Assembly: GCF_019112545.1 (NCBI RefSeq)
Contig: NW_025064883.1
Location: 1,981,919 to 2,045,918 of the forward strand
Direction: 5' to 3'
Length of the DNA stretch: 64,000 nt
DNA from: Guyanagaster necrorhizus
Taxonomy: Eukaryota > Basidiomycota > Agaricomycetes > Agaricales > Physalacriaceae
The notes beneath the pieces were generated by a model, which was given only the letters and a program-made list of their open reading frames with translations, had not been told where the DNA came from and searched no databases. A program made the position numbers and the translations under genes. Shown one piece after another: positions 10,636 through 50,908 of the stretch; the stretch's first letter is position 1, and each line of letters opens with the position of its first letter.

Positions 10636-13600
10636 CTACAAGCCATCGTCATTCAGCGTCGGCTTTTTACATGTACCTGTAGATGAACGTTGAGTTACAA
10701 TCCCTTTGATAGCGAGGTGCAGGTCATCTGATAAGTCCAAGGAACTTTTGAAAGGGAGAGAAGAAATCAAATCGTTAGCCTCTTCCGCTAATTTTCTGAG
10801 TTCCTTGCTGTTGCAACTCTCGTGGAAAGCAGAACTTGGGTCGAGCTGCTTTCGTAGTTTGATTGCAGCCTGGTTCGCCTTGCTGTTGAAAATCGAGGTT
10901 CATGTCAATTATCGCCGGTAGAAGTGGTAAATACGTACGTTGTCTTTTTTAACAACTTTTCAACTGCTTCCATCTCGTCACGACTGCAATCTAGAAACCT
11001 CTTTTTCGCCCCTGTTTTTTGGGTGAATGTCTCGGTACAAACATTCTCGAGACAGACTAAAAGGTGCGGCAGCGGTCCCAGAAACAAGCGAAGATATAGC
11101 CCTGGGTTAGCACCAAGCCGGGTCACCTTTTTGGTGCATGAGGCATAGAATTGTGCACGAAGGCCTGTCGTCCCTCTCTTGGCAACACCTCGTCGATGAC
11201 GAAGGACCTTTCTGCATACCCGCTGAATCAAGGATGCAGCAGCGACCTCTCTTTCTGTCGGCTTCCGGGTTGTCATATCTTCCACCGAAATGGCATCGGC
11301 AGCTACAGCATCATCACCAGAAGTCTCCTTGACGGCTTTAGCTTCTTGCATGGGAATGGCATCAACGACTACATCATCATTACCGGAAGTCTCCTCGACA
11401 GCTTCGGCTTCTTGTAGATTCTTCATTTTCTCCACTTCGCCGTCCTTATCCGGGCCCTTCCTCTCAGAAACATCGATTTGCGATGAAGTGGTCTTCCAGT
11501 AAGTGGATGCAGGAACAGCGGGACAAAGCTGCTGTTGAATATCTGAAAGGTCGACGTAGAGACGCTGATGAACCCCTTGTAAGGCATGCTTGTTTATTAG
11601 AGCCTCCTTGCTCAGGTGAACGAGCTGTATCATTTCGATCTTGGGGTCGGATTGCAGAGAAGAACGAATAACCTCTACAAGTTCATCCCATGAGCGGTCA
11701 GCGGCATCGATGCATCTGCAAAAGTCATATATCATGCAGGTGGTTCTTAAGACTGAGACCCACATACTGATTATAAAAAGGAGAAATTAATCGACCTTCT
11801 TGGCGCAAAGACAGCATCAACTTCTGAATACTGACACGGAGAAAATCATCGCAGACATTGTGACCGACTACATAGCAAAATAAGGACACAAATCAGAGAG
11901 CAGTCGGAAACTCACGTAGACCAAGAGCCTTGAATCTGAGAGAGGACTGATATCAGAAAATAATGCGATGGCCGATTTGGAGAAGCTGACTTACATTCTT
12001 AGGATGAAAGCATCATGATAAACTCGGCATGGCACTTTTGAATGATTTCTTGCGGTCACATAAAAGAGATGGTCTGGTAGATCATGAGGATGAAACGCTG
12101 AAGGAAAATAAGTTTCTGTAGCTTACCACAGTTTCTGGTATGCAGTTGTTCCAGGAGATCCTGCATAGGTGCCAGAATGATGCGATAATAATCTGTCTGT
12201 ATCTCCTCATTGAACTCTGGAAAATCATAGTTCACAGACCACAAGAGCCAGCTACGAGGGACAGTTAGGTCAGATGATAATGATTTTCCCGAGCGACAGC
12301 CCCAAAGAATGACAGAACCACAAAGAAAGTCCACAAAGTCGCATAGATCACCGACGTTGATGGACAGTCTTTGCTTTACAACAAGCCTAGAAAGAAGATC
12401 AACCTAGAGCAAAGATCGACAAGACACAGACTTACTCGACAAACAGAAAACCAGCAGTAAGAGACCATGTTTGATCTCCCGACATTGAGCTCAGAAGATT
12501 ATGAATAGCAATACCGTTGTTTTGGCGAACATAATTGGATGGAGGATGTTTTGCGCTGATATATGCGGGATTCCTGAGATAACCCGCTTGACTTCGGTCA
12601 AACATGAGAGCGATGGTAGCTGTCCGTATCACATCCGGGACGAAAGTCATCTAAGGCAGATACTTCCGATCACAAACAAATATTCGCACCCAATCTCTTA
12701 CAATATCCAATGCTCTTGGAGCTTCGGGAATTGTAGAAAGCACGAGATAGGAAATGGAACCGAACATATGATGTGGGGGATAGAGAGCATCGCAAAGACG
12801 GTTGAGCCAGAACCTGTATAAGAATGAATACCGCAAAGTTGGAGAACAAGAATGTCAATGTACTCAGGGGTTTCTCTGCTTTCCATTTGTTCGCAAGCAT
12901 TCCCACTAAGTGACCCCAAGATCAAGATTTGTTGCAGGTGCAGGCGAACGCGCATATTATAGTAACCGGTATCTATCATCAAAGGTGACATATGAACTTG
13001 TGGGCATTGGTCACAACGTCCAGATTCAGCAAAAACTAGGCAAATCTGGAATGCTTGACTTTTCGCACAATCGTCATCTTCAGCGGCAATCCTTCCCTTG
13101 AGATGACTTCGAAGAGCAAATTGAAATAGTCCACGTAATTCGAATGCCGACAACCTGAGATTCGAGTCGTGATCCCTATGCACGCTCTTACGTGGAAGAT
13201 TCAGAGCCGCTTTCTGTAGCCATGCATTCTTGGAGACAAGAAACTCATTCTCTGATATTCGTCGAAAACCGAACATCGCCGCCATTGTTACATCTTCCCA
13301 AGGGTCCGTTCGGGATGCAGCAGCGGAAAGAAGGCCCGCGTAGGTATAAAACAGGCCGAGTTCTTCGACTGCGTCGACAAGTGTCAAGTCTTGGATCCGA
13401 GGTGCCCGAGAAAAATATTGATCTAGGCACAGTAAAGCCGCAGAACTATGATCAGCCTTGTGGAATTTCGATCCCAGCGCGCGCAGCTGAGATGTCTGAT
13501 TATCTATGATGGCCCTAAACATGGACAGCTAAAATGCACCTGTATAAGCTGTGACAAGTAAGAAGTGAGATCGACACTTACTTCATCAGCTTTAGTCCAC

Positions 13601-37638: not shown

Positions 37639-38172
37639 TGTTATGATTTTTCTTATATTTCTTCTATTTTCTTTTCTTTTCCCTTGGAGATGACCCCTAT
37701 CTTGCTTAGTCAGGGCACTTAGGCCAGCACTTAGGATCGTGGGAATGCTTAGCTCAGCAGCCCAGTTGGTCAATCTCCTATGGCGCTGCTGTGTGCTGTG
37801 AAGGGAGAGACAATGCTCCTTTTGTCTCCAAATTGCAGTGTACAACTACAGCTCTGCAGCAAGACAGCAGCTTTTTGTGGAGAGCCTGGCAATGGTAGGG
37901 GAAACAGCTCTACAGCAAACAATATCTTTTGTGCACAGTTATTTATAGCGAGATAACAGAACAGTATTTAAGTAGCTTAGTTCTCACTGTAATACCCCAG
38001 TCTTGAACTAAAGTTTATACACTATCATCTTATCTCGAGCTCAACTAATTCGAAGAGCCTTGACCACACTATTCCATCTGCACATAAAGTAAACTCAGTC
38101 AGACATACCCGAAGTGCAAGGTACCAAACTGTTTATCATGTGCTAATGGTCACATGGGATTTGGGTCTAACA
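37639..38172 (+). repeat. 5' LTR of gypsy element 1
   Basis: Starts TGTTATG and ends TCTAACA. The TA-rich box 'ttatttatagcg' (about 37943-37954) and 'cagtatttaagtagc' (about 37963-37977) are likely promoter elements conserved in all LTR copies here. Its partner is 50375-50908; the differences I see are almost all C/T or G/A. Confidence 0.85.
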
Positions 38173-40738: not shown

Positions 40739-41228
40739 TGTTAGGAACGTGCCAATTGAGTGGGCTTGAGTGCACATGCAGAGTCCGGTGGAGTGCATGG
40801 GCATTGACGAAGCTATTGGCAACGTCACCCTTGAGTCAGAGCCCAAGGATCTGGATGGACAGAATGGAGTTCTGTCAGAGAAGTGAACAGGAGTATTCTT
40901 CAGAGCAGAATCCGATGGATGAGATAGGGAGGGGTGAGTACGAAGTGTAGATGGCTTATCCAAGTTGATATTCGAACTGAGTAGCTACGATGATGTACAT
41001 GGCTTTATATACTAATGGTAGCTAATTCTGAGTCGGGTTCCATTGGGTTCCGGTGTCGGTATTCGTTACCGAGTTCGGAGTCTAGATATTACAATGTGAA
41101 ATACGGATGTGAAATGATACTGGTGAAATGAAATTAGTAGGTAATGGGAAGCGGTTGGAGTCTGGTGAGTAGTGATTGGATTCACAGTTGGTTGAGGTGA
41201 TATGGAGGCTGGCGGCATGTGCGTAACA
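40739..41228 (-). repeat. 3' LTR of gypsy element 2
   Basis: 490 bp, same length as its partner at 48113-48602. I count roughly 30 differences, all but one transitions, many at CG sites. It lies 61 bp upstream of the antisense ORF starting at 41290, so it could also serve that ORF as promoter. Confidence 0.88.
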
Positions 41229-41289
41229 GTATCCCCCTCTTAGCGTTCTTGCCCTCAAGAGTGCAGATCCCAATGGCCGATGGGGCCAC

Positions 41290-42695
41290 ATGGAAGATTG
41301 TTGGTGGCCGTGGGAGTTTTTTCAGCTTGATCTGAAACCACCATCTTTGCCTATGTCATCGCTTGCCACATATCATCGCTCACACACTCCCGAGCCTTTG
41401 GTGAGGGGATCCATCCCCAATGGCCCTGAAGAGGCCAAGAAATTGTTTTGTCTGGAATGGCGAACCGCGGAGGAAGAATATGCGGAGGCCATGGAGAGCC
41501 ATTTGGAATGGCAAGGGGAGTGGGAGCAGGAGGAAAGGGTCTGGGTGGACTGTGTGGCCTGGGAGGCGTGGAAAAAGGAGCAGAGGGAGGAGTTGGAGAG
41601 GAAGAGGAAGGAGGTTCGGCAGGCCACAGAGAGGTGGGCTAAGGAGGCAGAGGAGGCATTGAAAGAGGCGGCTCAGAGGGAAGCTGAGGAGAGGGAGGCC
41701 GCGGAGGCAGCGGCGAGGGCTGAGGCTGAGGAGGTAGAGCCAGAGGGGACGGTTATAGAGGATGGGTTGCAAATGACCCCCATGGAGGCCATTGATTTTC
41801 AGCTGCATTGAGTGTTGGTGGAACGGTTTGGCCCTGGCCCCGGTCTTCGCTTCAAGAAGGTGACTCACCCTATGCCCCCGGAATCCAATGATGAACAGGA
41901 CAAGGGGACTGAGGGGGATGATGAGTCCGAGGAATCTGATGGGACTCTGGAGAGGAGGGAGAGGGTGTGGGAGGGGAAGAGAAGGGCAGCGGGTCTGGTG
42001 GAGAAAGGCTGTAAACGCAAGTTCAGGTTGAGGAGCATAGTGGATAGCAGTGGGACAGAGGTGGTTGTTAGCCCTAAAAAGTGGGCAAAGTTGGAAGTGG
42101 TGGGACCAGCGGGGAGCGAGGAATTGTTGGATGGTGAAAGTAAGTGTCTTGGTTTTCTTTTATGGCTCAACTTAGCTTTTTTTTTTTGTTTTTAGGGAGT
42201 TGTGTGCGCTGTCGTCAAGATGGTGCCTGGTGTTATGCATGCCTGGTAACCGAAGGCACTAGTCGAGGGCAGACTTGTTCTCGCTGCAAGGTCAAGAAAA
42301 CCGCCTGTTCATTCAACAAGGGCATTACCGTGAGTGAGGTGATCAGTAGTGTGGAGGTCTCCGCTGATCTCCACCAACTTTCACAATTGATATGCAAGTT
42401 GATGCATCGTGTGGATGAGTTGGCAGATGAGGTGGCGGATGTTTGCGATACTGTGGCAGGTCTTCAAGATGACTACAGTTCTGATGATATGTCGTCTCCT
42501 TCAGAGCTGTTTTTGGAGTCTGAGGTGGAGGCCTGGAAGAAGGCTCGACTGATTTTCAAGGATGAGAGGGATCAGGAGGTGGAGGATCTTCGGGAGGCGA
42601 TGTTGAAGGGGCTGGACGAGGATATAGAGGAGTTGAAGGAGTGGAGGGAGAGTTCAGGTTCCGGTGTAGGTCCATCGGGTTCCACTTCTTTGTAA
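41290..42695 (+). CDS. Antisense accessory ORF of gypsy element 2: coiled coil plus Zn2Cys6-like cluster
   Basis: The frame starts at ATG 41290, is interrupted by one TGA at 41809-41811 (a likely CGA to TGA change), continues to 42139, and after a GT-AG intron at 42140-42195 (gtaagt...tttttag) resumes at 42196 to the stop at 42693-42695. Intron polarity shows it is built for plus-strand transcription, opposite to the element. Residues about 55-155 are Glu/Arg/Ala-rich and probably a long coiled coil. Exon 2 begins with seven cysteines spaced CX2CX6CX2CX11CX2CX6C ('CSRCKVKKTACSF' at the end), close to a fungal Zn2Cys6 binuclear cluster but with a longer loop. A Leu/Val heptad region ('LMHRVDELADEVADV') and an acidic tail follow. 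Possible roles include DNA or RNA binding; the function is unknown. The single stop makes this copy inactive or truncated. Confidence 0.65.
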
Positions 42696-42883: not shown

Positions 42884-45800
42884 TTAGGAATGGGATGTTT
42901 GAATGACTTTGGACAAGGGTCCTGGTTTATCTGGATATCGGTGGTGGAATTCTTCAATAAATTCATTGGCAGAGAACTTGGAGGCTGGTAACCAAGCAAA
43001 TTCTTTGTTGGTACCTTTGTATCCTAGCCACTGGATTTTGTACAGCAGTGGGCAGCAGAACCGGCGGTCCAGTTTAGAGTTGAAGATTTGGGCTATTTCG
43101 AAATGTTCTTCTCCATCAACTTCGACTGGAGGCGGTGGTGGTTGGATTTGGTTAGGAATGGTGTTTTCTTTTATGGGTTCCAATTGTGACACATGGAAGA
43201 CGGGGTGAATGGACCGGAGGTCCGGTGGAAGCCTCAGGGTAAAGGAGTGGGTACCAAGTTGGGCTATGATTTTGAAAGGACCAAGGTATTTCTCTGAGAA
43301 TTTTCTGGTCGGGCGGGTGGTTTTGATATGTTTGGAGCTGAGGTAGACCTTGTCCCCCACTGTGAACGGAGGTGCCAGAATCTGGTGCTTGTCTGCTTGG
43401 GTCTTGTAGCGAGACTGGGCTTCAGAAATTTCATCCTTCAGTAATTGATGGAGTTTGTCAAGGTTGACTGCAAAATCTTGGGTCCGGGCGGAGGCGATGT
43501 CCCTTTCAGGGTGAATGGTGATGTTGGAGTGGTAACCCTTGTTAGCAAAGAATGGGGAAATTCCGGTGGACGCGTTAGGGGCATTATTGTAGGCGAATTC
43601 AGCAATGGGTAAGAGGGTGTCTCAGTTGTCCTGCTGGTAGGAGCAGTAGATGCAGATGTATTGTTCCAGAGTTTGGTTTGCTCATTCAGTTTGGCCGTCG
43701 GCCTCTGGATGATAACCAGAGGTAAGGTGGAGTTCCATGTCAAGGGCCATGGCTAAGGTGCGAGTAAATTGGGAGATGAATTCGGAGCTGCGGTCGGATG
43801 TGATGTGACTGGATACCCCATGTTTGGAGAATACATGGATAAGGAAAAGTTGGGCGAGCTCCATGGAGTTGATGGTGTCATGAGTGGGAATGAAAATGGC
43901 TTGCTTGCTAGCTCGGTCTATGACTACTAAGATGGCAGTGAATCTGTTGGAGTCTGGTAGTTGTTCAATGAAGTCCATGGAAATGGAATCCCATGGCCAT
44001 TCAGGAACTGGCAGAGGTTTTAGTAACCCATAGGGGTGGTGTCTGGGTGCCTTGTTGTGCCCACAAACTGTGCAGGACTTAACATAGTGTCGGACATATT
44101 CACACATCTTTGGCCAGGTGTAGTTCCGCTGGACTAGTTCTAATGTCCAGTTTTGACCAAAGTGACCTGCCAGGATGTGGTCATGATTGTTCTGTAGTAT
44201 ACGGAGATGGAGATCGTCAGAGTCCGGGACATAGATGCGGCCTTCGAAGTGAAGGATGTTGGATTCGTCAACAGACCATTGAGAGGGAGAGGATTCAGAA
44301 GCAGCCTTGGCCTGGCGGAGGCCGTTGGAGAACATAGCATCAGAGGATTGTGCTTGTCTGATATCGGTGTGGAGTTTGTCGATATCCATGATGGCACTAG
44401 CCCATAGGGTGGGGCCTTCGAGATAGGTTGCTCGGAGTGATGCAGAGAGTTGTTCTTGAGTGAACACGGGTCGGAAATTGTGGGGGTTGATTTGGGCATA
44501 TTGGCTATCCCCCTCTTTAGGGTAGACGTCCCATCATCTAGTGAGCGCATCCGGTTTCCCACCAAGTTTTCCAGGGTGGAACCGGATTATTAGGTTGAAC
44601 TGGGATAGGTATTTGGACCAGTGGACCTGTCGGCGGGTTAGAATCTTAGTGGTGGCAAAGTATTCAAGGTTCTTGTGGTCTGTTACGACATCGATGGAGT
44701 CCACGGAGCCTTCAAGGTAGTGCCGCCAATGTTTAAAGGCTTCAAAAATGGCTAGAAGCTCTTTGTCATGAGTGTCATAGTTGAGTTCAGCATTGTGGAG
44801 GCTCTGGGAGTGGAAAGCGATGGGGTGAATTTCGCCATCTTCAAGATAGATGGAGAGGATAGCTGCAATTGCATAGTCGGAGGCGTCGGTTTCCACTACT
44901 ATCTTTCGATTGGGGACCCAGTGGGTAAGGATGAGAGCATGTGTAAAGGCTTGTTTCAATTCATTGAAGGCAGCCAAGCATTTGTCGTCAAATTTCCATG
45001 GAGTTCCCTTACAGATGAGTCGTGTAAGGGGGATGACGATGTTGCTATATCCATGTATGAAGCGACGGTAGAAGTTGGCAAAGCTGAGGAAGGATTGGAT
45101 GTTCTTGACTTTTCGCAGCACCAGCCAGTCAACAATCGCCTTGATCTTTTCTTCAGACATGTGAAGTCCTTCAGATGATAGGATGTAGCCTAGGTACTCC
45201 ATGGAGTCCTGGTTGAATTTGCATTTGGAACCTTTGCAGTAGAGTCCATTAGCTCTAAGCCTGCATAGGACCTCATGAACATGTTTCTGGTGATCTTCCA
45301 GGTTGTCGGAATATATGAGGATGTTGTCGAGGTAGACTACTACTGATATGTCGAGCATGTCTGAGAATATATCGTTCACAAATTGTTGGAATGCTGCTGG
45401 AGCATTTGTGAGGCCAAAGGGCATGATGTGCCATTCGAAGGAACCATAACGGATCTGGAAGGCTGTTTTCCATTTGTCCCCCTTAGCTATGTGAACGAGA
45501 TGGTAGGCATGCCAAAGGTCGAGCTTGGTGTAGATGCATGCGGAGCAGGCAGAGTCGAGGAGGTCAGAAATGAGGGGAAGAGGGTAGCAATCTTTCTTGG
45601 AGATTTTGTTTAGGCCATGGTAGTTGACACAAAGTCAGAGTTCACTGGTCTTTTTCTTGATGAATAGAACTGGAGCCCCATGTGGAGAGTGGGACGGAAT
45701 AATGAACCCATTGCACAGATTATCATCAATAAACTCTTGTAGGGCTTTGAGTTCAGATTCTGAGAGAGAATAAATGGGTCCAAGGGATGGAGATGTCCCT

Positions 45801-46909
45801 TCCTCAAGATTGATTTTGAGGTCGTACGGTCTGTGTTCAGGTAGTTTTTCGGAGAGGGTATCGCTGAAGACATCTGCAAAATTGTGGTACTCTACTGGCA
45901 CTGATGAAAGATCTGCCAGTTCCATGGATGCGGCTTTGGCTCCAATATTAGGCAAAGAAGGCTGCAGTGTGAACTGCTGGGCACTTTCTTCTGCACTGGC
46001 TTGGATGAATGCGGCAGTGGATATGATGGAGATCTTTGGGTGTGCTTTCATAGTAAAAGATTCTGAGGGAGGATAGGAATAGATGGGTTCATATGGGAAT
46101 GAAGTCCGCCGGCTACCCGATGTGGACTTGGAATGGGGTGAAGCCCTGGAAGTTGGACTGATAGAGTCCGATAGGCATGGAAGTCCCGAAATTGAGCTGG
46201 AAGACTCGGAAAGGGGTGGACTGTTGTCCTGTGGGCACGGAAGTCCCTGGGATGCGGTGGAGGCTGTGGAATTGGTTGGAGTGGGGTCCTGGTAGCTTGA
46301 ACGGAAAATGATACTGTTCTCAGCCCAGTCAATCAGTGGATTGTAGTGGGAGAGCCAGTTGTATCCTAGGACAAGATTGCAAGATGAATCCAGAGGAGTG
46401 ACATAAAAGTCGATGGGGAAGGTGTCTCTGGATGGGAAACAAATGGGGATGGTTGTGATTTGAGATATATGGCTTCTGATGGAGCCATCAAATAATCGAA
46501 GTTGCACACTAGGAATGGTTTTAATGGGAATTTCATTGGCAGCTACATACTTAGTGTCAACAAAGCAGTGGCTAGAGCCAGAATCAATAAGGGCAAGAAA
46601 ACGCAGAATGATACAGGTTGGGGAGCCGTTGGGTTCCATAGCAGTCGGTAATTCTGCTGAGAGGGGAATGTGGAAGGAGTGATTGGAAAGGGATGTTGCA
46701 TTGAGAGTGATGACCTCCGGTGTGCGAATACAGTCGACGCAACCCTGAACTCGCATGGAGGGAACAGGGTTGCTTCCTAGTTTTCCGACTCCGTCGGGGC
46801 CGGTTCCACGGGAGTGGTATTGACCTCTGCTGCATGCCCCTTGGTGGAGGCTGCTGCCTTCTGCTTGTTGCAGTCCTCGGTCTTGTGTTTGGCTCCACAG
46901 AACATGCAA
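42884..46909 (-). pseudogene. Pol polyprotein of gypsy element 2 (PR-RT-RH-IN-chromodomain)
   Basis: One frame covers about 1,340 codons without an indel, broken only by stops at 45635, 44534, about 43622 and 43682. Domains in order: protease 'LALIDSGSSHCFVD' (near 46560-46600); reverse transcriptase 'MPFGLTNAPAAFQQF' and 'VVYLDNILIYS' (45311-45340), where the usual YLDD is YLDN; RNase H 'VVETDASDYAIAAIL' and 'DHKNLEYF'; integrase zinc binding 'HILAGHF...CTVC' and catalytic segments 'SMDFIEQLP', 'TSDRSSEF' and 'ADGQTE'; C-terminal chromodomain ('YKIQWLGYKGTNKEFAWLP', near 42970-43050). The stops replace codons that were Arg or Trp in the family. The changed RT active site would abolish polymerisation. 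Confidence 0.88.
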
Positions 46910-48073
46910 AGGTTGTTCTGGTGCTGGTGGTCTTTTTCTTCCTGGGTGAGATGGCCATCTTTGCCTAGCTTGTCGGCATAGGGCTTAGGGGCGGTAGATT
47001 TCGGTGTGGAGCTGGAGTCCAAGGAAGAAGTGTTAGATCCCTTGGATTTGGGGTTGAGGAATTTATTGTCCCAGTTTTCACAGGCAATTTCGGTCTTCTG
47101 GGTCCAGTAGCGAGCATCAAGTTCTTGAGCAAGGAAGCGCATATCACGAAGGTTGTTTGGCTTCCCATGGTGTGCCATGTCATCCTTGATACGGGTGCAG
47201 AGGCCATGGTAAAAGGCATGGTGGAGGGAGTTATCTCTGTACCCAATTTATGAAGTGTACTGGTTGAATTGGACCATATACTTTATGATCCGATCACCAT
47301 CGTGCATCCGAAGGTGTTCTAATGTATCTTCAGCATCTCCAATAGCATCAAAGGGGCCGAAGTTGCTATGAAGCTCATCTAAGAAGGCTGCATAGGAGAA
47401 TTGCCAGGCTGGTGGATTCCGTGGATTGGGGTTAAGAATGTCTGGTTCAAACCAGTTGAGCATGGTGCCAGCCAGGAATGAAATGGCATAGTTAACTTTG
47501 TTAGCATCCATTGCAAACGCGGTAGGTCTGTCGTTGAAGTTCAACTGAAGGGAGACAATGAAAGCCTTCAGTTTGTGAGGGTCAGAGCCATCAAATGGTT
47601 CTGGTTCCTTGATCTTGGTACGGACAGTGGCTGGTTTAGGGTTGTTGAGAGAGGTGGAGACTCCTCGTAACAGGTTCATGAATTCTAGGAACATGTCCTG
47701 CTGGTTTGGATTGTTACTTCCTGTGGGGCTGTCGGCGCTGCCTGGGCCATTGGGACCACCTGGACCTCCTGGACCCTCTGGTCCCCCTGGTCCACCTGGG
47801 AAAGGGTTTGGTGGATTGCCAGCTGGTTCCCGTCAGATGGGAGTATGAGTAGGGGTTAGAGGAATCGTCATAATTAGGTTGGTGGGCAGTGAAGCTAGAG
47901 TGATTGTAGGTTTCCCTATGGGAGGGTTGTCCCCCACTAGAGGCTGATCCGAACAGGCCTGGTTGTTCTTTTGAGGCAGAGGCTGGAATGTCTTCCATGG
48001 AAAACATGTTTGGATGGGTGGACTGTCTTTGTTCGGGATCGGTCTCTGTGGGTTCGGTAAATGTGGTGGACAT
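46777..48073 (-). pseudogene. Gag of gypsy element 2
   Basis: It starts at ATG 48073 ('MSTTFTEPTETDP'), 40 bp inside the right LTR. A Gly-Pro-rich collagen-like linker ('GGPGGPEGPGGPGGPNG', about 47730-47815) is followed by the capsid-like domain ('FDGSDPHKLKAFIVSLQLNF') and a zinc knuckle-like 'CMFCGAKHKTEDC' (about 46870-46915). Damage: a frame change near 47840 and a stop at 47248-47250. The end overlaps the pol frame by about 130 bases in a different frame, as expected where pol is reached by frameshifting. Confidence 0.75.
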
Positions 48074-48112
48074 GATAAAATTTTTGACTCAAGGGTTTGA
48101 GTTTGAATATAC

Positions 48113-48602
48113 TGTTAGGAACGTGCCAATCGAGTGGGCTTGAGTGCACGTGTGGAGTCCGGCGGAGTGCGTGGGCATTGATGAAGCTATTGGCAACGTC
48201 ACCCTTGAGTTGGAGCCCAAGGATCTGGATGGACAGAATGGAGTTCTGTCAGAGAAGTGAACAGGAGTATCCTTCAGAGCGGAATCCGATGGATGAGATA
48301 GAGAGGGGTGAGTATGAAGTGTAGATGGCTTATCCAAGTTGATATTCGAACTGAGTAGCTACGATGATGTACATGGCTTTATATACTAATGGTAGCTAAT
48401 TCTGAGTCAGGTTCCATTGGGTTCCGGTGTCGGAATTCATTACCGAGTTTGGGGTCTAGATATTACAATGTGAAATACAGATGTGAAATGATACTGGTGA
48501 AATGAAATTAGTAGGTAATAGGAAGCGGTCGGAGTCCGGTGGGTAGTGATTGGATTCACGGTTGGTTGAGGTGACACGGAGGCCAGCGGCATGCACGTAA
48601 CA
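48113..48602 (-). repeat. 5' LTR of gypsy element 2
   Basis: 490 bp with TGTTA/TAACA ends; keeps more CG dinucleotides than the left copy in several places. The flanking duplication ATGCA starts at 48603. I did not recognise a standard tRNA primer-binding site in the bases next to it. Confidence 0.88.
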
Positions 48603-50374: not shown

Positions 50375-50908
50375 TGTTACAATTTTTCCTATATTTCTCC
50401 TATTTTCTTTTCTTTTCTCTCAGAGATGACCCCTATCTTGCTTAGTCAGGGTGCTTAGGCCAGTGCTTAGGACCGTGGGAATGCTTAGCTCAGCAGCCCA
50501 GTCAGTCAATCTCTTATGGCGCTGCTGTGTGCTGTGAAGGGAGAGACAATGCTCCTTTTGTCCTCAAATTGCAGTGCACAACTACAGCTCCGCAGCAAGA
50601 CAGCAGCTTTTTGTGGAGAGCCTGGCAATAGTAGGGGAAACAGCTCTACAGCAGACAATATCTTTTGTGCACAGTTATTTATAGCGAGATAACAGAACAG
50701 TATTTAAGTAGCTTAGTTCTCGCTGTAATACCCCAGTCTCGAACTAAAGTTTATATGCCACCATCTTATCTCGAGCTCAACTAATTCGAAGAGCCTTGAC
50801 CACACTATTCCATCTGCACATAAAGTGAACTCAGTCAGACATACCTGAAGTGCAAGGTACCAAACTGTTTATCACGTGCTAATGGTCACATGAGATTTGG
50901 ATCTAACA
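50375..50908 (+). repeat. 3' LTR of gypsy element 1
   Basis: 534 bp, the same length as 37639-38172 and nearly the same sequence; ends ATCTAACA followed by the GATTG duplication. Confidence 0.85.

Follow-up and report, generated by a model that had tools for sequence, protein, structure and literature searches.

A conserved antisense gene for a cysteine-cluster and coiled-coil protein in a chromovirus-type gypsy retrotransposon of Guyanagaster necrorhizus

A Ty3/gypsy retrotransposon of the chromovirus type in the basidiomycete Guyanagaster necrorhizus carries, on the strand opposite to gag-pol, a protein-coding gene that the element family has retained. We analyzed a 64,000-nucleotide stretch of contig NW_025064883.1, here called the window, together with the genome to which it belongs (53.3 Mb in 109 contigs). 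The structure of the antisense gene, its conservation among copies, the purifying selection acting on it, an old homologue and its linkage to the element were all computed. That a retroelement keeps an antisense protein-coding gene at this place had been proposed in a sequence-only reading of the window, and purifying selection, a conserved intron-like break and presence in other copies bear this part of the proposal out. Selection having maintained it, the protein probably benefits the element, and from its predicted features we put at about even the chance that it is a DNA-binding regulator encoded by the element, one that works as a dimer in the nucleus.

The element lies on the minus strand, is 7864 bp long and is decayed in the window copy. 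Its two LTRs, both of the form TG...CA, are at 48113..48602 (5' LTR, minus strand, 490 bp) and 40739..41228 (3' LTR, minus strand), the latter directly upstream of the antisense gene, and they are about 93% identical (93.4% across 500 aligned bases). The LTRs are flanked by the 5-bp sequences ATGCG and ATGCA, which look like a target-site duplication in which one base differs, and a purine-rich tract adjoining the 3' LTR (41229..41250, minus strand) reads like a polypurine tract. The gag region (46777..48088, minus strand) has a broken frame with a Ty3_capsid match inside it. The pol region (42884..46984, minus strand) is spread over several frames or interrupted and encodes protease, reverse transcriptase, RNase H, integrase, an SH3_Tf2-1 domain and a weak chromodomain; the PR-RT-RH-IN order and SH3_Tf2-1 are clear in Pfam. 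The chromodomain named in the sequence-only reading does have a Pfam Chromo match at the expected place, but one that is below threshold, at 14 bits against a cut-off of 25.1. Two other copies give 19.5 and 21.8 bits, and because the match falls below the cut-off in all three copies the element is called chromovirus-type with reserve. An older repeat pair, D3 (37639-38063 and 50375-50799; 300 nt, 93% identical, 12.7 kb apart), encloses the element, which is therefore probably nested in another LTR element. Copies of a further repeat, D1, lie beside the D3 pair, and the 191-bp part of this arrangement has at least 40 matches among 860 candidates in the genome.

The antisense gene occupies the plus strand between the chromodomain and the 3' LTR. 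Exon 1 (41353..42139, plus strand) contains one in-frame TGA in the window copy, at 41809-41811; the predicted intron (42140..42195, plus strand) runs from GTAAGT to TTTTTAG and is 56 nt long here; and exon 2 (42196..42695, plus strand) terminates in TAA. The place, the strand, the intron and the lone stop are all as the sequence-only reading described them. The beginning of the ORF had been put at 41290. The start is most likely the ATG at 41353 (MSSLATY...), which we favor because it aligns with the methionine of an Armillaria protein described below, and we disfavor 41290 because in one subfamily reading from there either enters exon 1 in the wrong frame or meets a stop. The product of an intact copy is 428 aa long. 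The antisense gene ends at 42695 and pol at 42884, so that the two face each other with zero overlap.

Other copies of the element might have lacked the ORF, as the sequence-only reading allowed. Instead, a search with exon 2 gave at least 150 matches among 285 candidates in the genome, and we fetched the best 30 of these copies (L003-L032). The splice donor GTAAGT is intact in 30 of the 30 and the acceptor AG in 29, which upholds the GT-AG polarity that had been claimed for the antisense strand. The intron itself is 49-56 nt long in these copies, every phase being represented. Where it is 51 nt long it can be read through without a break of frame, so that in such copies the frame alone makes no demand for splicing. 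The length of exon 1 from the methionine to the donor changes in threes, apart from a recurrent 17-nt deletion and from L015 and L028, which are rearranged or frameshifted. Stop-free reading from 41353 to the end of exon 2 is found in five of the 30 copies (L007, L010, L014, L017 and L026), four of which are also stop-free from 41290. The 17-nt deletion lies at a short repeat at the start codon (41353-41380 of the window), occurs in nine of the 30 copies and in both main subfamilies, and puts the start ATG out of frame. The start may have been lost in copies able to use protein supplied in trans, or translation may begin farther downstream.

The gene is linked to the element. Among the 150 exon-2 matches listed, 115 are followed downstream, at less than 1.5 kb, by an integrase-tail/chromo match on the other strand, at a distance of 150-199 bp in 105 of those 115, and 115 of the 150 chromo matches listed have an exon-2 match. 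The same opposite-strand arrangement is present in 28 of the 30 fetched copies; one of the exceptions stops matching the element just before the region, and the other adjoins sequence outside the stretch that could be read. A near full-length LTR lies upstream at the expected place in 28 of the 30, with L015 having another layout and L018 a partial LTR. By our own count, exon 2 is stop-free in 31 of the 150 matches listed, and the integrase-tail/chromo region, which is longer, in 17 of 150 listed. Among the matches listed, most copies thus carry the gene and it is conserved to a degree comparable to the integrase tail, the properties by which the aORF-3R class is recognized. The gene is more than a chance ORF.

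Decay in this genome is mainly C-to-T (kappa of 17-50 in the in-frame fits, with many TGA stops), and consequently terminal branches shift omega toward 1. An initial codon fit of 18 copies with the exons joined gave an omega of 0.68 with a kappa of 40. Seven well-preserved copies of our choosing were fitted with a codon model in which omega = 1 was tested on a kappa grid. Exon 2 had the lowest omega, 0.39 (p=1.1e-7 against 1), followed by the integrase tail/chromo region with 0.52 (p=0.0003) and exon 1 with 0.70 (p=0.017). The wrong-frame test of the codon model covered the forward frames, four of which gave 1.31, 1.29, 0.93 and 1.72 in the same seven copies, the last being above 1 (p=0.005). 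Over 28 copies (those fetched minus L015 and L028), omega was 0.60 for exon 2 (p=2.5e-9) and indistinguishable from 1 for exon 1 (0.89, p=0.63); for the integrase tail it was 0.71 over 27 copies, L031 also being dropped. The sequence-only reading had called for dN/dS among copies and had taken a value of about 1 to count against it; in the best-preserved copies the ratio is below 1. Overall, the frame that encodes the protein has been preserved, with a strong signal in exon 2 and a weak one in exon 1.

Pairwise comparisons extend these estimates. Between four subfamily-A copies and L017, dN/dS in the frame of the antisense gene (the aORF frame) was 0.17 for exon 2 and 0.34 for exon 1. Across all comparisons the forward wrong frames gave 0.66-1.37 and the reverse frames 0.27-1.63, the low values occurring in rev2, which mirrors third positions. 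Once CpG sites were left out and a simulated neutral ratio was applied, omega* came to 0.30-0.31 for L017 pairs, 0.62-0.78 for A-B pairs and 0.60-0.89 for pairs that include strongly decayed copies. A count of singleton versus shared substitutions showed no clear silent excess, the signal being blurred by recurrent C-to-T decay.

The predicted protein consists of a conserved N-terminus, a charged helix, an acidic stretch, basic NLS-like stretches, a cysteine cluster and a coil. The first helical region (41425..41730, plus strand), rich in Glu, Lys, Arg and Ala, had been taken for a long charged coiled coil. It is predicted as a helix by AlphaFold2 in the Armillaria homologue, but in copy L010 it has no heptad excess (p=0.42), and the coiled-coil assignment is withdrawn. 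The basic stretch KRKFR (42004..42033, plus strand), a candidate NLS, is also found in the Armillaria protein. At the beginning of exon 2 is a six-cysteine cluster of the form C-x2-C-x6-C-x14-C-x2-C-x6-C (42201..42308, plus strand). Across the 30 copies none of the six cysteines has been lost, compared with a mean conservation of 0.90 over exon 2. The sequence-only reading had counted seven cysteines in a Zn2Cys6-like cluster, and seven are indeed present in the window copy. The seventh is not shared: its column holds Cys in 13 copies, Arg in 12, a stop in four and Ser in one, and because this matches C-to-T decay of CGN we attribute the seventh cysteine to decay. Directly after the cluster comes a heptad coiled-coil region (42327..42464, plus strand), a helix of 35-46 residues with a heptad excess in L010 (p=0.0005) and in the Armillaria homologue (0 of 2000 shuffles). 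The sequence-only reading had named a second heptad region; the significant heptad pattern is in this helix, and the last helix has none (p=0.60).

Gal4-type DNA-binding factors are built in this order: a zinc cluster, a short linker and a coil that dimerises. The antisense protein shares with these factors the C-x2-C-x6-C...C-x2-C-x6-C spacing and the coiled coil behind it, and one database name of its Armillaria homologue points the same way. It differs from them in that it is encoded by a retroelement, has no other Pfam domain and does not reach the Pfam cut-off: Zn_clus (PF00172) reached 11 bits on a 42-aa piece, short of the cut-off of 21, and was absent for the full protein and for the Armillaria homologue. 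It differs also in the loop of the cluster, which is 14 residues here, 8 in the Armillaria protein and 11 in the diverged copy L049. The usual loop of Zn2Cys6 proteins is 5-12 residues, and 14 is longer. Neither scans of Pfam and NCBIfam nor a sequence search of the PDB placed the antisense protein in a meaningful family. AlphaFold2, run on a two-row alignment, produced helices but no confident fold in the cysteine region, where pLDDT averaged about 31-51 over blocks of ten residues.

The full spliced protein had one match in a set of 5.8 billion proteins at E values up to 10: P0001, a 555-aa protein of Armillaria solidipes (E=2.4e-17), 31% identical, with 98% of the query aligned. It is entered in its sources as 'hypothetical protein' and under a second name that includes 'Zn(2)-C6 fungal-type'. 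The alignment begins at the methionines of both proteins (MSSLATYHRSRTPEP / MSASIEYRQSATPEP), retains RKRKFRS and extends through the cysteine cluster into the coil. With the charged helix removed the match still scores 80.8 bits, and 50 shuffles gave at most 0.4 bits. In the same protein set, exon 2 alone had zero matches at E 0.001, and the cysteine region alone was without a match at E 10.

Diverged relatives of the gene are also present within the genome. Two loci, L049 on contig C13 and L052 on contig C9, have an integrase tail 68-70% identical to that of the window element, whereas the cysteine-bearing piece of exon 2 is 37-40% identical, from which it follows that the antisense gene evolves faster than pol. 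Both loci carry the gene in the antisense location seen in the window, interrupted by an intron-like break at the corresponding position and with a partly decayed cluster, and L049 retains an MS..-like start. Relatives with a closer match to P0001 are present in the genome at four places. At L041, the relative and a chromo region 54% like that of the window are on opposite strands. At L055 and L056, relatives of P0001 share the strand of a nearby gypsy pol, with a nested insertion or an unread stretch between the two; because of this separation, a sense-oriented placement of the gene in other gypsy elements was not adopted. At the remaining relative, L057, the 7-kb piece examined had zero pol detectable with the window queries. 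The expectation that matches would lie antisense in gypsy elements holds for L049, L052 and L041. In L065, a member of another abundant gypsy family, a chromo-like stretch is visible by eye on the opposite strand near the end, which suggests an inverted arrangement there. Judged from the distribution of these relatives, the antisense gene is older than the present subfamilies.

Our preferred, still hypothetical, account of how the gene acts is as follows. Antisense transcription would start from a promoter in or beside the 3' LTR, and the single small intron would be removed by splicing. The basic stretches would bring the product into the nucleus, where it would dimerise through the coil and bind zinc and DNA through the cluster. 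Regulation of the element could then consist of tuning transcription from the LTR or of tethering to chromatin. In its fullest form the proposal is an antisense, spliced, dimeric Zn2Cys6-type transcription factor, of a DNA-binding class characteristic of fungi, that reads LTRs or chromatin and controls the element, and that is old, common to several gypsy lineages and Armillaria, and maybe re-oriented relative to pol; we advance this only tentatively, as one possibility that we would wager on with less confidence than on a DNA-binding regulator in general. The LTRs offer a possible binding signature. CGG..CCG pairs are more frequent than in shuffled sequence in the LTRs of the window element, in four LTRs of subfamily A and in that of L020 (p of 0.003-0.017, not independent), but not in the LTRs of L008, L030 and L017 (p of 0.20-0.49).

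A role of the protein in the replication cycle, as a nucleic-acid chaperone, as an aid to import of the preintegration complex, or as a partner of the integrase tail or chromodomain in setting target sites, is somewhat less probable still, although it is the strongest competitor. The linkage to integrase-tail/chromo pol in 28 of the 30 fetched copies and the presence of both basic and cysteine-rich parts in the protein would suit such a role, and a review of aORFs treats nuclear translocation of the preintegration complex (PMC7264820). On the other hand, the cysteine spacing is that of a zinc cluster and not of a CCHC knuckle, and a heptad coil right behind the cluster better fits a DNA-binding dimer.

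It is very unlikely that the antisense RNA is what matters, by pairing with gag-pol RNA and feeding or evading small-RNA silencing, with the ORF being incidental. Antisense transcripts of retroelements may act in this way, as described in the same review (PMC7264820), but selection on the encoded protein in its proper frame (omega of 0.39 in exon 2), exon indels that come mostly in threes while the intron drifts, and a full-length protein homologue at 31% identity all argue against it. Slightly less probable again is the recent capture of a host transcription-factor gene by a few copies. The transcription-factor-like database name of the Armillaria relative and the absence of detected pol in the 7-kb piece at L057 could be read in this way; against it are the at least 150 copies and the diverged L049 and L052, which have the same antisense place and intron-like break and which indicate that the gene is old in the element. 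Recent capture is accordingly unlikely, and an ancient capture is possible. An ORF that arose by chance, or as the mirror of a frame on the gag-pol strand, is hardly credible and was rejected: the opposite strand does have a 259-aa open frame at the antisense gene, and pairwise dN/dS in rev2 is also below 1 (0.27-0.61), but several results speak against it. In 28 aligned copies, with L015 and L028 left out, the aORF frame lacks stops in 19 for exon 1 and in 16 for exon 2, and none of the other five frames, the reverse ones included, is stop-free in more than two. Pairwise, the aORF frame has the lower ratio in every comparison, except that exons 1 and 2 are close within the intact group; its omega in the codon model is not matched in the forward wrong frames; pol ends at 42884, short of any overlap; and P0001 aligns in the aORF frame.

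Retroelements of plants and fungi, and retroviruses, repeatedly carry antisense accessory genes. The fungal gene brtn was reportedly described by Zhao et al. (2011, Virology 417:248). It lies antisense in the Boty-like retrotransposons of Botrytis cinerea (PMC7264820, PMC4227169, PMC8365987, PMC5987419), where gag-pol carries a CHROMO domain (PMC4227169) and brtn sits between pol and the 3' LTR (PMC7264820). The Guyanagaster element resembles Boty as a fungal gypsy element with an extra antisense gene beside a CHROMO gag-pol; it differs in that the host of Boty is an ascomycete, and the likeness to brtn is one of position and orientation. In plants, antisense aORFs include gene23 of Grande, those of RIRE2, and TRP28 of Retand (PMC7264820, PMC11963269). 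These are alike in place, in orientation, in being present in most copies, in a conservation similar to that of other element proteins and in the DNA-binding or nuclear roles suggested for them, but they belong to plant elements, and Retand is stated to be a non-chromovirus. TRP28 (PF04195), the domain of the antisense ORFs of Retand (PMC11963269), is not among the Pfam matches of the antisense gene, and the words zinc and intron do not occur in the main text of PMC7264820 or PMC11963269. The function of retrotransposon antisense genes is stated in the review as not known (PMC7264820).

The sequence-only reading had compared the gene with antisense genes of retroviruses, which is apt as an analogy, but Grande, RIRE2, Retand and Boty brtn are closer precedents. 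HBZ and APH of HTLV are likewise transcribed antisense from the 3' LTR and spliced, and HBZ is a nuclear bZIP regulator (PMC10186651); they belong to retroviruses, however, homology to them was not found, and bZIP is not among the Pfam matches of the antisense gene. An 'add. ORF' of unknown function appears in a figure legend on fungal Gypsy elements (PMC2864245) and could be related to the antisense gene. Elements of bdelloids with extra ORFs have also been described (PMC5408684), and the word antisense is absent from the available text of PMC3248453. In the open full-text literature, we came across no account of an antisense gene with a Zn2Cys6-like cluster in any basidiomycete element. Antisense accessory genes as such are already known, and what is new is the cysteine-cluster-plus-coil protein and its intron. 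With many copies, selection at the protein level and a tractable zinc-cluster-plus-coil architecture, binding of the protein to the LTRs of its own element is directly testable. The Armillaria relative suggests in addition that some of the listed fungal zinc-cluster factors may be retroelement genes.

Elsewhere in the window, an inverted repeat has arms at 333-974 and 10652-11295 that are 78-82% complementary and about 10 kb apart. The arms overlap two ORFs that look related to each other, one at 61-987 on the plus strand and one at 10905-11765 on the minus strand.
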